This document shows positions 58,047-64,000 of a DNA stretch of 64,000 nt, piece after piece. The stretch is taken from the NCBI RefSeq assembly GCF_013266695.1, contig NZ_JABRXF010000001.1:574236-638235 (forward strand), written 5' to 3'. The notes under the pieces are model-generated. The model saw only the letters and a list, made by a program, of their open reading frames with translations. It made no database searches and was not told where the DNA came from. Numbering within the stretch: the first letter of the stretch is position 1; each line of letters begins with the position of its first letter. The position numbers and the translations under genes are program-made. The DNA comes from Hongsoonwoonella zoysiae (GTDB lineage: Bacteria; Pseudomonadota; Alphaproteobacteria; Rhizobiales; Stappiaceae).

Positions 58047-58571
58047 TCAGGCTGTTTCGGATCGGGCGGATAGAAACCCGACGCCCTTCGCTGAGGCCGC
58101 CCCGAACATGGTCCCGATTGCCATGGAGACCACCACCAGCGGCAGGACATTTTGAAAGCTCGCCGAAAGCAGCGCCTCATAGGCAAACGCGCCGGGCGTC
58201 TGGCTGAGGTAGGCAAATGTCGTGGCATAGCCGAAGACGATGCCGGGAACGAAGCCAAGCGCCGGGATCTGCGACGAAAGCACGAAGAAGACGATGCTTG
58301 CAGCCACGAGGAGCCCGATCCACGCCGGACCGGGCAGCCCGGTTATGGGATTGGAAAGGGCGAGGACGGCCACTGCCCAGGCCACGAGGGACCCGAAGGA
58401 ATTGCAGGCGATATTGAGCATGATCGCCTTGTTGTCGCCACCCGCCGCGAAGTACGAAGCCCATGCGGTGAAGACGCCCCATAAAAGGATCGTTCCCACG
58501 GAAAGTACCGACCACGTGGCGATACCGCCAAAGAACCCGACGCTGATTGCCATTGCCATAATTCCGGACAT
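58047..58571 (-). CDS. DUF1097-family membrane protein (YcdZ-like)
   Basis: 174 residues from ATG 58571 (CCGGAGGG upstream), five or six hydrophobic helices. WGVFTAWASYFAAGGDNKA, LGFVPGIVFGYATTFAY and VSMAIGTMFGAASAKGVGF resemble the DUF1097 group represented by E. coli YcdZ. Function is not established. Its place 137 bases after the amidase suggests involvement in uptake of nitrile or amide, or in ammonia or acid movement, which is inference only. An AmiS/UreI channel was considered and rejected on sequence pattern. Confidence 0.75.
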   Translation of the reverse strand: MSGIMAMAISVGFFGGIATWSVLSVGTILLWGVFTAWASYFAAGGDNKAIMLNIACNSFGSLVAWAVAVLALSNPITGLPGPAWIGLLVAASIVFFVLSSQIPALGFVPGIVFGYATTFAYLSQTPGAFAYEALLSASFQNVLPLVVVSMAIGTMFGAASAKGVGFLSARSETA

Positions 58572-58708
58572 TGCTTTTCCCTCCGGTTGGCGCCGGCCGC
58601 ACCGGCGCTGGTCTTTCTTCCATGAGGCAGGGCATCCCCTCGCGCGCCCGTCTCCCTGCTCGCGGCGTGCGGTCGGCACGCCGCCTGATTTTCGGGCGCG
58701 AAGTTCGC

Positions 58709-60223
58709 TCAGGCATGCTTCCAGTCCACCGAAGCCTCGAAGGCGGCGGCTGCCTGGTAGATCTTGCTTTCCTGATAGTCTCCGGCGGCGATGGACAGGC
58801 CGATGGGCAAGCCCTCGCCCATGCCGCAGGGAATGGACATCGCCGGATGGCCCGTGACGTCATACTGGGCGGTCGCCCCAAGCATCTCCCATGACCGGGA
58901 TACGATCTCGGCGATGGGCGCGTCGGGCCCGGGCAGTTTGGTCGCCTTCATCGCGACAGTCGGCGTCAGGATGACGTCATATTCCGCAAAGGCCCGGTCG
59001 TAGATTGCCTTCATGCGCCGGGCGATGTTCTGCGCCTTTCCGTAAAAGGCGCCGCGGTAGCGCGTCTGCATGTAACGGCCCACAAGCATGGCGATGGTGA
59101 GCGTCTTAGAAAGATCGTCCGCCTTCTGCCGCCAACCCGCGTGAGCCTCCATCAGCGCGACGTCGTAAAGACCTTTCCAGTTGTAGCCCATGCCGTTACC
59201 GAACATCATCTGAACGGCGAGGCCCTCCATGCCGATCGGCCCCCAAAGCGCGGCAAGCTGCGGGTGTTCGGGTATCGAGACCTCTTCCACGTCAGCGCCA
59301 AGCTCGCGGAACCGGTCGCCCGCGGCCCTTACCTTTTCGGCGACATCTTCTTCCAGAAGCGGTACCTCGAAACCTTCCTTCAGAATGCCGATCTTCATTC
59401 CCTTCACGCCACGGTCGAGCGCGGCGGTGTAAGTGTCGGTTTTCGGCGAATACTGACGCGGGTCCAGCCCGTCGGCACCGGCAAGCACCTCCAGCATCAG
59501 CGCGTTGTCGCGCACGTTGCCGGTGATCGGCCCCGTATGGTCCACCGTCATCTCGATGGGCATCACGCCGGTATAGGGGACGAGCCCGTAAGTCGCCTTC
59601 ATGCCGTATACGCCGCAGAAAGCCGCAGGGATGCGGATCGAGCCGCCCTGGTCGCCCCCGATCGCCAGGTCGACCTCGCCGGTGGCCACAAGGGCCGCGC
59701 TGCCGGAGGAAGATCCACCCGCCGAATAGCCGTACTTGTACGGGTTGTGAACGGGCGCGGGGTCGGAAGAATGACTGCCGGCCGAGAGGCAAAACTGCTC
59801 GCACGTCGATTTGCCGAGAATGGTGGCGCCGGCATCCAGAAGCCGGGTCACGATCGTCGCATCCATTCCCGGAACGAAACCTTCGAGCGTCGATGACCCG
59901 TTCATCATGGGAACGCCGGCGACCGCCACATTGTCCTTGATGACAACGGTCTTTCCGGCGAGCTTACCGGTCGGCGCGCCCCTGATTTCGCTCCTGTAGT
60001 ACCAGGCGTTGAGCTCGTTGTCCTTTCGCGAGGGCCGATAGCCCGGCGTCCTGGGGTATTTGACTTCCGGAATGTTGTCCGGCATCTCATCGACCATGTC
60101 GTAAGGGTCGAAATTGGCCTGCATGACCGCAAGATATTCCGCCGCCTTTTCCTCCGACATCGTCATGCCAAGTTCCGCAGCGATCTCCATGATCTGCTGA
60201 ACGTTCGGCCTGTTGATCGCCAT
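58709..60223 (-). CDS. Amidase (amidase-signature family), nitrile hydratase-associated type
   Basis: 504 residues from ATG 60223 (GGAAAGGAAAT upstream). Catalytic Lys in [17 protein letters not shown], the Gly/Ser-rich [19 protein letters not shown], and the cis-Ser/nucleophile region [20 protein letters not shown] are intact. The sequence resembles the amidases paired with nitrile hydratases in Rhodococcus, which have [17 protein letters not shown]. It converts amides to acids plus ammonia, completing the nitrile pathway. It stands downstream of the hydratase/cobalt block behind a strong terminator, so a separate promoter around 60230-60400 is likely. Confidence 0.92.
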
Positions 60224-60402
60224 CGTTATTTCCTTTCCCCAAAAGGACACCCTGCATTTCGGGTGAGGTTCGTCCGTTGCGTCCGGTAAAAAAGAAAACG
60301 CAATATATGAAATTACTAGTATTAGGGCGCAGCTATACCGCGGCCGACACTTCAGCCCGGCATGTCAGGATATCGGGTTCGTTGCGTGAATCGCTCCCGG
60401 TT

Positions 60403-60450: not shown

Positions 60451-61209
60451 TCAGGCGAAGCCGCCCCGCCGTTGCCACAAGTACCCCAGTCCCGAGCCGA
60501 GAACGGCCCAGAAAACAGCGGCGCACACCAGTGAAGCCGCGGCAAACTGGCCCGCAAGTTCCGCCGGCGCGGTGGATGTGTATTCATGCGGTTGCGGCGC
60601 GCCGGCAACATGCGGCGCCACGATCAATGCGACGCCGGCCAGCTTGACAAGCGAAGGCCCTCCCGCCGTGGCCAGACGGAGCCCGGCCGCCGTGGCGATG
60701 GCGGTGGCGATCCACCAGGCCTGCCGGCCTGAAAGATCGGCCGCCGCGGAGCCCGGCAACTCCGGCGCAAGGCCGAGAGAGGGAGCCAGAGCGACAGCAG
60801 CGAAGCCGCCAAGACCCCAGAGCAACCCCGATGAGGGGTCGATCTTTCGTCCGCTTAACAACATGGCCGACAGAAGCAGGAGAGCGAAGCCGAAGCCGAT
60901 CAGAACGCTGGTCAGGCTTGTATGGAATGTACGCTCCGCGCCATCCGCCGGTGCCCAGTCTCCCGAAAGGGCGCCAAGGACACCGCCAGCATCGCCGGCA
61001 CCTCCATGGGCCTCGCCATCATGCACGAGCCAGACGCCGACATCGTTTGCGGATGCGGCAGCCTGCTGGAACAGGCCCGAGGCTGCCGCGGTTTCGTAGA
61101 TTTCGGCCTGCAGAATGATCGGCGCGGTAAACACCGCCTGCAGGAAGGCAAGGGTTAGCCCGGCGGCGCATCCAGCACCCAGGGCACAACCGAAAATCCG
61201 GCTGATCAT
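60451..61209 (-). CDS. cbtA: Predicted cobalt transporter subunit CbtA
   Basis: 252-residue integral membrane protein of the CbtA family. Five to six helices; family blocks are GLTLAFLQAVFTAPIILQAE, LAPSLGLAPELPGSAAADL, RQAWWIATAIATAAGLRL and IVAPHVAGAPQPHEY. His/Asp residues in VGVWLVHDGEAHGG could bind metal on the outside. CbtA works with CbtB to import cobalt, usually for B12; here it lies behind a cobalt-type nitrile hydratase, so supplying that enzyme is the likely job. Separated from cbtB by about 150 bases holding a repeat. Confidence 0.88.
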   Translation of the reverse strand: MISRIFGCALGAGCAAGLTLAFLQAVFTAPIILQAEIYETAAASGLFQQAAASANDVGVWLVHDGEAHGGAGDAGGVLGALSGDWAPADGAERTFHTSLTSVLIGFGFALLLLSAMLLSGRKIDPSSGLLWGLGGFAAVALAPSLGLAPELPGSAAADLSGRQAWWIATAIATAAGLRLATAGGPSLVKLAGVALIVAPHVAGAPQPHEYTSTAPAELAGQFAAASLVCAAVFWAVLGSGLGYLWQRRGGFA

Positions 61210-61362: not shown

Positions 61363-61551
61363 TCAGTGACAGGGAAAGCCTAGCGAATGACGGCTGTCAT
61401 GCGCGGCGTTGTGCAGCACGTTCGGCGAGGCAAAGCCGACCGCGAAAACGATGCCCATTCCAAACACAAGCGCCAGCATCGCCGCTTTCGCGACGGTGAC
61501 GCGATCGGCCGGTATGGCGTTGATGGATGGGATTGCCTTGATATCGTTCAT
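61363..61551 (-). CDS. cbtB: Predicted cobalt transporter subunit CbtB
   Basis: 62 residues from ATG 61551 (AGGAGGACGTT upstream). One TM helix (AAMLALVFGMGIVFAVGFAS) followed by the characteristic His-rich end NVLHNAAHDSRHSLGFPCH, taken as the metal-binding site. A cobalamin riboswitch, common before cbtAB elsewhere, was not found. Instead the gene is 165 bases behind the hydratase accessory gene, in the same direction, so cobalt import is tied to hydratase expression. Confidence 0.9.
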   Translation of the reverse strand: MNDIKAIPSINAIPADRVTVAKAAMLALVFGMGIVFAVGFASPNVLHNAAHDSRHSLGFPCH

Positions 61552-61716: not shown

Positions 61717-62220
61717 CTAACCGGCTGCGGCTAACCGCGCGGGGCTGACGGCAATCGGCTCCGGCCTCCGGCCATCATGATGATGATGATGGTGGTGGTC
61801 GTGCCCCTCATCGCCGTGCGAGCCGATGCTTTCTTCAAGGCCTCGCCGAAACTCCACCGGGTGGCCATGCGGCGTGGCAAGGTAAGACCTGCGCCAGTCT
61901 TCCGCTGCCTGGGAAATCTCGTCGGCGCCGAGTATCCCCTTTTTCAGGAGAATGGTCTCAAGCGCCGTTTCCCATTGCCTGTAGTAGGTCGAGTTGCTGT
62001 CCTCGCCGGGCCATGGCGGCACGTTGCGGATAATCGTGCTGAAGGTTTCGACCCATTCCGCCCAGGTGAACAGCCCGGCACGGCTCAAGGCCATCGATGT
62101 GCCGAATGCCTGCGCATGCCACGGCTGGGCGAATTTCGGGGCGTCCACATGGTCCGATTGTCCGCAGGCGATTTCGATCGAAAGGGGATCGAAATCGGGT
62201 AGCGATCCGGTTCCGGCCAT
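61717..62220 (-). CDS. Nitrile hydratase accessory (activator) protein with poly-His tail
   Basis: 167 residues. ATG 62220 is preferred over the GTG at 62223 because GGAGGA then lies 6 bases away; both overlap the preceding stop. The body (FAQPWHAQAFGTSMALSRAG, LFTWAEWVETFSTIIRN, STYYRQWETALETILLKKG) is the beta-subunit-like fold of NHase accessory proteins such as p14K, which help insert cobalt into the alpha subunit. The C-terminal tail has GDEGHDHHHHHHHDG, ten His within a short stretch, suggesting metal storage or delivery. Order alpha, betaN, betaC, accessory, cbtB, cbtA forms a cobalt chain. Confidence 0.88.
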   Translation of the reverse strand: MAGTGSLPDFDPLSIEIACGQSDHVDAPKFAQPWHAQAFGTSMALSRAGLFTWAEWVETFSTIIRNVPPWPGEDSNSTYYRQWETALETILLKKGILGADEISQAAEDWRRSYLATPHGHPVEFRRGLEESIGSHGDEGHDHHHHHHHDGRRPEPIAVSPARLAAAG

Positions 62221-62567
62221 CACGCTTCCTCCAGATAGCTCTCATAGAGATCGGCGTAGATCGCGTCTTTCGGGCCGGCATCCGGCCCCCAGACGTCGGA
62301 ACCTTCGAAGCGGACGCAGTAGAGATGCTGCGGGTGATCGCCTTCGAGGACGGCCCTGGTATCCGCGAAAACGAAGCCGCCGTAATGTGTCACAACGGTG
62401 CCCACGCGGCCACGCAGGTAACGGGGAAGCCGGGTATGCGTCGGCTTCGCCATGACCACGGCGCGCACCTTGTCGCCGACCTTGAAGGCGGGCGCTTGGG
62501 GCACATCCGCCCTGGGCGAGAAATTCGTCGCGATGATCCCGGGGATCATGTCAGGGGTAACAGGCAT
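62220..62567 (-). CDS. Nitrile hydratase beta subunit, C-terminal half as a separate ORF
   Basis: 115 residues (116 if the ATG at 62570 is used) corresponding to the C-terminal SH3-like half of NHase beta: FKVGDKVRAVVMAKPTHTRL, PRYLRGRVGTVVTHYGGFVF, HPQHLYCVRFEGSDVWGPD and a YADLYESYLE ending. The two ATGs lie in ATGATG overlapping the stop of the N-terminal half, with GGGAGG just upstream, so coupled translation is possible. The reading frame differs from the first half by one. Either a natural two-piece beta, as in thiocyanate hydrolase, or a one-base deletion (GAAATG to GAATG) of a normal 221-residue beta. Confidence 0.85.
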   Translation of the reverse strand: MPVTPDMIPGIIATNFSPRADVPQAPAFKVGDKVRAVVMAKPTHTRLPRYLRGRVGTVVTHYGGFVFADTRAVLEGDHPQHLYCVRFEGSDVWGPDAGPKDAIYADLYESYLEEA

Positions 62568-62881
62568 CATTCGCCTCCCTGTTTGCGGAGGATGTCGATC
62601 CGAGCGTCGATTTCCTCTTGCGTGAGAATGTCCTTCTCGAGCAGGCTGCGGGTAACGCCGTCGACCCATTGCTCGTAATAGGACGACTGCAGCCAGCGCA
62701 GCGCGGGGATGCGCTCCATCGCCCAACGCGTCTCGTCGATGTTGTAGACGCCCTCGATCGCCAGCGCGACTTTCACACCGAACATTCGCCTTTCCCATTC
62801 TTCATGGAAGATCGGCTCGTTTTCCTCCAGCGGCAACGGCCCTACGCCGTCCATTCCGCCGATGTCGTGAATGCTGTTCAT
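62567..62881 (-). CDS. Nitrile hydratase beta subunit, N-terminal half as a separate ORF
   Basis: 104 residues matching the N-terminal half of NHase beta: MNSIHDIGGMDGVGPLPLEE, FHEEWERRMFGVKVAL, ALRWLQSSYYEQWVDGV and LLEKDILTQEEI. The residues YYEQW contribute to the active-site wall in two-subunit enzymes. Ends at TGA (62567-62569) exactly at the boundary where the linker between halves would be. Starts 40 bases after the alpha subunit stop. Confidence 0.87.
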   Translation of the reverse strand: MNSIHDIGGMDGVGPLPLEENEPIFHEEWERRMFGVKVALAIEGVYNIDETRWAMERIPALRWLQSSYYEQWVDGVTRSLLEKDILTQEEIDARIDILRKQGGE

Positions 62882-62921: not shown

Positions 62922-63521
62922 TCAGGCAGCCAGCCGGCATATGCCGGTGCCGATCATGGAATCCCGCGTAACAAGAGCCGCCAGCTCATCTTCGCTCCAG
63001 CCATCTGTCCCGGCGGGACGTTCGGGAAGCACGAGGTAGCGGACGTCCGAAGTGGAATCCCAGACGCGCACTTCGACGTCGTCGGGAATTTGAAGGTCGA
63101 ATTCGGCAAGGACGGAGCGCGGGTTGAGCACCACCCGGCTGCGATAGGGAGCCGTCTTGTACCAGTTGGGCGGCAGCCCGAGCACCGGCCAGGGATAGCA
63201 GGAACACAAGGTGCAGACGACGACGTTATGGACTTCGGGAGTGTTCTCCACCACGACCATATATTCGCCCTGGAATCCCGAAAAACCGAGGGATTCTATC
63301 GCCGCCGTGCCGTCCTTGAGCAGCCAGGACCTGTACTCCGGGTCGGTCCACGCCTTGGCCACGACCTTTGCGCCGTTTTTGGGGCCGAGTTCATGTTCGA
63401 ACACATCGACGATCGCATCGACAACACCTGCGCCAAGCACCCCTTTTTCGGTCAGAAGCGTTTCGATCGCCTTGACGCGCAGGGCGACTGGCACCGGCGG
63501 TTTGGTATGTGAATGGGACAT
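62922..63521 (-). CDS. nthA: Nitrile hydratase alpha subunit, cobalt type
   Basis: 199 residues; ATG 63521 follows AGAGAGGCGAACC. The metal-claw motif is [18 protein letters not shown]: Cys-Thr-Leu-Cys-Ser-Cys is the cobalt type (iron enzymes have Cys-Ser-Leu-Cys-Ser-Cys). N-terminal [18 protein letters not shown] and the late [19 protein letters not shown] are also conserved. The enzyme hydrates nitriles to amides; two of the claw cysteines are normally oxidised after cobalt insertion. The cobalt importer and accessory genes in the same direction agree with this. The thiocyanate hydrolase gamma subunit has the same motif, so a thiocyanate role is not excluded. Confidence 0.93.
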
Positions 63522-63744: not shown

Positions 63745-64000
63745 TCAGGGCTGAAAATCGATAATTCGAAATTCTATTCCATCTACTGTTGCCAGGTGGA
63801 CCGGACGAGTGCCACCGGCAACGGCGGTCATATCGAACCCGCGCGCGGTGCGTCCCTGTATCGTTCTCCCGACGCGCCGCTGAAGGTCGCGAGGGTCGAG
63901 ATCGCCCGTTGCCGCGGCTAAAGCTGCCAGGCAGTGGACGCCTTCATAGCACGATTGCCCGAAACCGTTGGTCGGTGGCGGGCTCTCGCCGAAAGATTGG
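63745..64000 (-). CDS. Amide/urea-type ABC binding protein (AmiC/UrtA-like), C-terminal 84 residues only
   Basis: The minus-strand frame is open to the window edge and ends at TGA (63745-63747). Visible protein: GFGQSCYEGVHCLAALA, RTIQGRTARGFD and GGTRPVHLATVDGIEFRII, resembling the ends of HAAT binding proteins of the AmiC/UrtA type found beside nitrile hydratase and amidase genes. The start and signal peptide lie outside. It is upstream of the hydratase alpha gene on the same strand, about 220 bases apart, so it could bind the amide or nitrile for uptake. Confidence 0.7.
   Translation of the reverse strand, partial: QSFGESPPPTNGFGQSCYEGVHCLAALAAATGDLDPRDLQRRVGRTIQGRTARGFDMTAVAGGTRPVHLATVDGIEFRIIDFQP

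Follow-up and report, generated by a model that had tools for sequence, protein, structure and literature searches.

A putative three-subunit cobalt nitrile hydratase with a divided beta subunit in Hongsoonwoonella zoysiae

Three-subunit nitrile hydratases (NHases) are known from Streptomyces, where the published passages available describe the AnhD-AnhE-AnhA enzyme of S. canus (PMC7329996, PMC13243292) and the toyocamycin NHase of S. rimosus, an (alpha beta gamma)2 assembly (PMC8574189). The AnhD protein, which corresponds to the N half of beta (PMC13243292), is described in those passages as a beta subunit that doubles as a chaperone for the metal and for swapping, and S. canus yielded no gene for an activator (PMC7329996). 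A plasmid of Microvirga flocculans carries another three-subunit NHase with two beta genes, said in the passage concerned to flank alpha (PMC11573777). Swapping of alpha with its cobalt has been shown with P14K for the alpha-beta-P14K gene order, according to the passages available (PMC3511329). In thiocyanate hydrolase (SCNase) the alpha-type gene (gamma) comes last and is followed by the activator, as stated in a 2020 review which, in the parts available, gives six NHase gene layouts, alpha-N-C-activator not among them (PMC7193024). A literature search of titles, abstracts and passages found no description of that layout, and the passages of PMC10098168, PMC3323583 and PMC4009401 contain nothing on a split beta.

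The window, that is the whole stretch of 64,000 nucleotides of H. zoysiae analysed here, appears to hold, intact, the operon of a three-subunit cobalt NHase in which two overlapping genes replace the single beta chain, a reading to which we give a probability of about 0.85. As far as the published passages go, the cobalt NHase of S. canus likewise has one chain homologous to the N part of beta and another homologous to its C part; it is reportedly without an activator gene (PMC7329996), whereas the window has one, and the M. flocculans enzyme is set apart by the description of its flanking beta genes (PMC11573777). The NHase of P. putida NRRL-18668 (gene order from passages of PMC3511329; structure 3qxe) and those of Alloyangia and Mangrovicoccus (L040/L039 loci) share gene order, claw and active-site residues with the window, but their beta is one chain and that of the window is two. 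Judging from the sequence, the enzyme of the window belongs to an already known kind, and its alpha-N-C-activator order differs from the six layouts of the 2020 review without being categorically new.

The operon and the junction within beta

The features discussed below are listed in the direction of transcription.

63745..63999, (-): periplasmic-binding-type protein, 3' part (PF13458); the full gene (352 aa) extends beyond the window; first gene of the kept block
62922..63521, (-): nitrile hydratase alpha subunit, 199 aa, 21.8 kDa; CTLCSC claw at residues 103-108; TIGR01323 316.8 bits (cut-off 249.85)
62567..62881, (-): beta-N, the N-terminal domain of NHase beta, 104 aa, 12.1 kDa; R52, Y68, W72; PF21006
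62574..62579, (-): GGGAGG, Shine-Dalgarno-like (putative function), 3 nt ahead of the ATG at 62570 and 6 nt ahead of that at 62567
62565..62570, (-): ATGATG, in which the beta-N stop TGA (62569-62567) overlaps both candidate beta-C starts
62220..62570, (-): beta-C, the SH3-like C-terminal domain of NHase beta, 115 aa (ATG 62567) or 116 aa (ATG 62570), about 12.7 kDa; HTR arginine; PF02211
61717..62220, (-): nitrile hydratase activator/accessory protein, 167 aa, a beta-N homologue with a His-rich tail; TIGR03889 78.1 bits (cut-off 46)
61363..61551, (-): CbtB, proposed cobalt transporter subunit, putative start codon; TIGR02459 64.1 bits, slightly below the cut-off of 64.4
60451..61209, (-): CbtA, proposed cobalt transporter subunit; TIGR02458 229.6 bits (cut-off 182.9)
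58709..60250, (-): amidase, probably the second step (amide to acid); PF01425; NF005565 795.7 bits (cut-off 545)
58047..58679, (-): DUF1097 protein, final gene of the block kept in the window, S. sediminis and S. albiluteola

The original prediction, made from the letters of the window, had placed the claw CTLCSC in the alpha-type gene, a cut of beta at the linker between its two domains, and an ATGATG joint preceded by GGGAGG, and all of these were read again here at the positions listed. The joint from beta-N to beta-C is GAATGATG and the junction on the coding strand is CAGGGAGGCGAATGATGCC. The two halves lie in separate frames and each carries a single Pfam domain of NHase beta, which in beta-N is the N-domain (PF21006, 112.4 bits against a cut-off of 21.5) and in beta-C the C-domain (PF02211, 109.3 bits against 27.7). 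The second ATG (MPVTPDMIPG) is the beta-C start common to the window, Stappia sediminis and S. albiluteola, and further downstream the ATG of the activator overlaps the beta-C stop, again as TGATG. The periplasmic-binding-type protein at the head of the block may act as an AmiC-like amide sensor.

Identity of the enzyme

Among the curated NCBIfam models, alpha passes that of NHase alpha (TIGR01323, 316.8 bits, cut-off 249.85) and fails that of SCNase gamma (TIGR03887, 201 bits, cut-off 291.45). The halves score 108.9 and 114.7 bits against the single-chain beta model TIGR03888 and miss its cut-off of 152.2 because beta lies in two genes, and the activator gene that marks the Co-type NHases is present (TIGR03889, 78.1 against 46). 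When compared with solved chains, alpha gave 297.6 bits with P. putida Co-NHase alpha and 324 with 4ob1 (two stretches summed), as against 168.8-174.7 with SCNase gamma, and each half finds its best PDB sequence match in P. putida Co-NHase beta. The AlphaFold prediction of beta-C (mean pLDDT 82.9, pTM 0.74) has the P. putida Co-type NHase beta domain as its first fold match, and that of beta-N (mean pLDDT 76.9, pTM 0.62, with the first 14 residues below 50) a Comamonas Fe-type enzyme; both predicted folds also match separate SCNase chains, lower than the NHase beta domains.

The letters CTLCSC of alpha are presumably those of a cobalt claw. An alignment of 11 split proteins, taken from among the 18 units described below, showed no variation at R52, Y68 and W72 of beta-N or in the HTR motif of beta-C; R52 and the HTR arginine, positions counted from P. 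putida alignments, are taken here to be the catalytic arginines. Position 51 of beta-N, to which we ascribe a role in the pocket, is T51 in the window and Stappia as against F51 in P. putida, so that the substrate may differ from the common nitriles. Taken as a whole, the sequence comparisons support a three-subunit cobalt NHase that is cut in the linker joining the beta domains.

The alternative that the enzyme is a thiocyanate hydrolase, or another superfamily member that is not an NHase, draws on the three separate chains, as in ScnABC of T. thioparus (2dd4), whose chains give fold matches to both halves of the window, and on the resemblance of these halves to SCNase chains, which is weaker than that to NHase beta. 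We consider it improbable, given that the alpha of the window is an NHase alpha both by the curated models, where TIGR03887 is missed and TIGR01323 passed, and by the PDB scores, which Co-NHase alphas top; that the gene order is unlike the one given for SCNase in the passage cited (PMC7193024), the alpha-type gene being first in the window and gamma last in SCNase; and that an amidase lies within the operon. The thiocyanate hydrolase that had been offered as one reading of the locus is thus not supported, and neither is the idea that an amidase beside it would make an unusual combination, since with an NHase alpha the neighbouring amidase is the usual partner.

In a three-subunit cobalt NHase of this kind, alpha would carry the cobalt claw, and beta-N and beta-C would jointly replace the single beta chain, with the active site divided between them so that R52, Y68 and W72 would come from beta-N and the HTR arginine from beta-C. 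Ribosomes that end beta-N could restart at beta-C on the TGATG following GGGAGG, and such coupled translation would deliver the two halves in approximately equal amounts. By analogy with the toyocamycin enzyme the assembly would be an (alpha beta-N beta-C)2 hexamer, and by analogy with the swapping enzymes the activator would insert cobalt into alpha through self-subunit swapping, the cobalt-loaded alpha entering the apoenzyme. CbtAB would provide the cobalt, and the amidase would convert the amide to acid and ammonia. As the window has an activator besides its free beta-N, a division of labour between them can be tested.

Conservation and distribution of the split

The beta split is also found in S. 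sediminis, with an identical junction, and in S. albiluteola, where the junction is AGGGAGAATCGTGATG, and the binding protein, alpha, beta-N, beta-C, activator, CbtB, CbtA, amidase and DUF1097 genes follow one order in all three genomes (window, S. sediminis, S. albiluteola). Two congeners of the window's genome among the relatives searched (G001 and G002) carry locus DNA identical to that of S. sediminis (L038) and S. albiluteola (L037). The dN/dS ratios (Nei-Gojobori) of the window versus S. sediminis and S. albiluteola were 0.038 and 0.101 for alpha, 0.123 and 0.071 for beta-N, and 0.024 and 0.078 for beta-C, respectively, and values of 0.02-0.12 in beta-N and beta-C indicate that both halves are maintained as proteins with much the same stringency as alpha. 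By these comparisons the split beta of the window is natural, with both halves evidently under strong purifying selection.

The original prediction had warned that one added A would restore a fused beta of normal length, and this single-base difference is what speaks for a sequencing or assembly error, in which a base would be missing at the junction and the true gene would be a fused beta. We find this hardly credible: the public assemblies of the two Stappia species are split as well, that of S. albiluteola despite its other junction letters, and so are 15 further units and five plasmid loci, and the caution is contradicted by the relatives as well as by dN/dS. The comparison with orthologous loci for the same split, which the prediction had proposed, therefore came out in favour of a split beta, and its suggestion that a natural three-subunit Co-NHase is encoded here is borne out, as far as sequence can tell, by the curated alpha model, the recurrence of the split and dN/dS.

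We searched genomes of 151 relatives, 345 of the Epibacterium family, 397 of the order, 385 of the class and 246 of Streptomyces, these sets overlapping. After L118, L123, L202, L197 and the decayed L119 had been left out, there were 18 alpha/beta-N/beta-C units, namely the window, the two Stappia species, Epibacterium ulvae and 14 units of other genomes (G124, G695, G1343, G1137, G1251 twice, G1084, G1413, G1336, G1243, G1392, G1367, G1350 and G1263). In all 18 units a start codon for beta-C begins no more than 8 nt from the end of the beta-N stop, in the same linker, with stop and start letters that vary (TGATG, GTGATG, TAATG, ATGA, TAAATG); in L108 the halves are in frame and are separated by a stop codon. 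The inter-domain stretch measures 29-38 residues in the 18 split units versus 22-38 in 62 fused alpha-beta rows, so that no obvious part of the protein was lost through the cut. Among the loci left out, L118, L123 and L202 lose the frame only after it has crossed the linker wholly or for the most part, L197 combines a linker stop with a beta-N that is doubled and a beta-C that is shortened, and L119 has stops in alpha too.

The overlap of the two halves in different frames might also suggest programmed frameshifting that yields some fused beta chain as the working form. It seems quite improbable to us, since the last 75 nt of beta-N in the window contain no slippery heptamer of the XXXYYYZ type and the RNA at the junction folds in an ordinary manner (z -0.91; 34 of 200 shuffles were equally good), and since the junction letters vary between species and L108 keeps its halves in frame with a stop between them.

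The split is found on plasmids as well. A search with beta-C matched 135 plasmid records, and eight of the 40 that were listed were examined. The closed plasmids of two strains of A. vitis, of A. tumefaciens and of Rhizobium sp. NIBRBAC000502774 carry the alpha/beta-N/beta-C split with a TGATG or TAATG overlap; the split is also present on a plasmid of the cyanobacterium Gloeocapsopsis dulcis, where the nearest ATG start lies downstream of the beta-N stop; a Streptomyces plasmid locus is split in the order N-C-alpha, and beta is fused on the plasmids of Sinorhizobium sp. K101 and Rhodococcus opacus. The G. dulcis annotation shows the halves as two separate 'SH3-like domain-containing' proteins, with nthA on one side and the accessory gene on the other. 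All four Agrobacterium/Rhizobium plasmid records list nthA and the accessory gene with none between and exactly one locus tag skipped; as the PLSDB table omits pseudogenes, the skipped tag, which is the sole basis for this, suggests that both halves were filed jointly as one broken nthB. Automated annotation probably files some split loci under broken genes in this way.

This apparent classing of such loci as pseudogenes, seen as one missing tag in four of four plasmid records, would agree with a genuine frameshift and a decaying beta gene, and true breaks do exist, both in L119 with its stops in alpha and in L118, L123 and L202 with their later loss of frame. We nevertheless regard a pseudogene in the window as very unlikely, because the dN/dS of both halves (0.02-0.12) is as low as that of alpha, and because the cut recurs at one site with a start codon near it in 18 of 18 units, unlike in L118, L123 and L202.

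Most alphaproteobacterial betas among the matches listed in the Epibacterium family and order searches are fused, and the nearest relatives outside Stappia, Alloyangia and Mangrovicoccus, have an ordinary fused beta, which indicates that the split is not required for activity. Two further arrangements were observed. In L188 (2306-2956, (-)), and also in L189, L190, L192 and L194, beta-C is followed by a protein of accessory type to which a second beta-C-like domain is fused (in L188, TIGR03889 65.3 bits and the C-part of TIGR03888 88.5 bits), i.e. an activator with the shape of a whole beta; in L186 (1223-3608, (-)), two betas flank alpha, the upstream one fused and the downstream one split.

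The genome that contains the window has other NHase loci. A second one (G000:C1:1331396-1332636) has an ordinary fused beta, so that split and fused enzymes stand side by side in the strain. A third (L206 6514-11787; G000:C1, about 188.0-193.3 kb) has a fused beta, the order beta-alpha and the letters CTLCSC, and is followed by genes for a DUF1097-like protein, a periplasmic-binding protein, an AmiR/ANTAR regulator, a formamidase/acetamidase (FmdA), a beta-N/activator-like protein and a CbtA-like protein; the FmdA hints at formamide or cyanide chemistry. The DUF1097 gene (58047-58679) accompanies the NHase operon in the window and in both Stappia species, and a relative of it adjoins the third locus; as a guess, its product is perhaps a nitrile or amide transporter.

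Evolution and possible meaning of the split

In joint trees of alpha, beta-N and beta-C, the window and Stappia are sister to the fused Alloyangia and Mangrovicoccus (100/99), as in the alpha-only trees, and fall outside a larger split clade (96/94 with 14 split rows), which in an enlarged tree (98/97) contained 18 split rows, including Agrobacterium, Epibacterium and Gloeocapsopsis, together with a single fused row, a myxococcal one. L191 stood apart from both the Stappia group and the larger split clade. For clades that were named after the trees had been inspected, AU tests did not reject the 18 units as one clade with alpha alone (p-AU 0.154), rejected it marginally with alpha and beta (p-AU 0.041), and did not reject one clade including the fused Alloyangia and Mangrovicoccus, i.e. 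a single split with later re-fusion (p-AU 0.182). From these trees, the hinge would either have been cut several times, or once in the alpha-N-C group with a re-fusion in Alloyangia and Mangrovicoccus. The beta-N tail was also tried as a marker of shared origin, and the scoring test failed to separate split from fused: the tails of the window and the two Stappia species ranked 1, 11 and 29 of 117, and some fused actinobacterial tails scored similarly.

The Streptomyces split loci form a separate clade (100/100) beside fused relatives (91/90; 87/67 in the smaller tree), outside of which the enzyme of the window falls; the published AnhDEA and ToyJKL, the latter being what we take to be the toyocamycin NHase of S. 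rimosus (ToyJ etc.), are themselves not among the rows. All 12 Streptomyces split loci retrieved (L135-L146; the L145 genome also has a fused beta) have the order N-C-alpha and no activator-like gene in any of the 12 stretches, as opposed to alpha-N-C-activator in the window, and the linker is nearly absent in 10 of the 12 (gap of -2 to 13 nt; 55 and 94 nt in the others), compared to 29-38 residues in the units of the window type. Of the 246 Streptomyces genomes searched, 47 had a match and 31 of these were without a full-length fused match, which together with the 12 of 12 split loci lacking an activator-like gene indicates that the three-subunit type is common in Streptomyces.

The order beta-N, beta-C, alpha was observed in many alphaproteobacterial loci (L088-L091, L093-L095, L147-L150, L170-L173, L177, L178, L181, L183 and L198-L201), those included in the alpha tree being a deep clade, and these loci appear to be an unnamed three-gene family. 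All four alphas tested from this clade miss the SCNase cut-off and pass that of NHase; the L088 alpha, for instance, gave 211.9 bits with NHase (2dpp) versus 165.5 with SCNase gamma. As the SCNase cut-off was reached in none of 378 genomes drawn from the phylum, there is no proven SCNase among the rows of the trees.

It is conceivable, though we hold it to be doubtful, that the alpha/beta-N/beta-C/activator loci make up a widespread unnamed class hidden by annotation pipelines, in which the hinge was cut (and perhaps unmade) repeatedly because a free beta-N, itself homologous to the activator, would aid the exchange of alpha in cobalt loading, by analogy with the AnhD of S. canus; the split would then be a maturation device rather than an accident. 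Working enzymes of an industrially useful kind may be overlooked where such loci are, as is probable, filed as broken genes. The close pair of a split and a fused enzyme, in Stappia and in Alloyangia and Mangrovicoccus, would allow the effect of the split on assembly, cobalt loading and stability to be tested directly. The comparisons made here show that the split of beta, known from a few enzymes, recurs as a stable layout across many families of Alphaproteobacteria and in at least one cyanobacterium.
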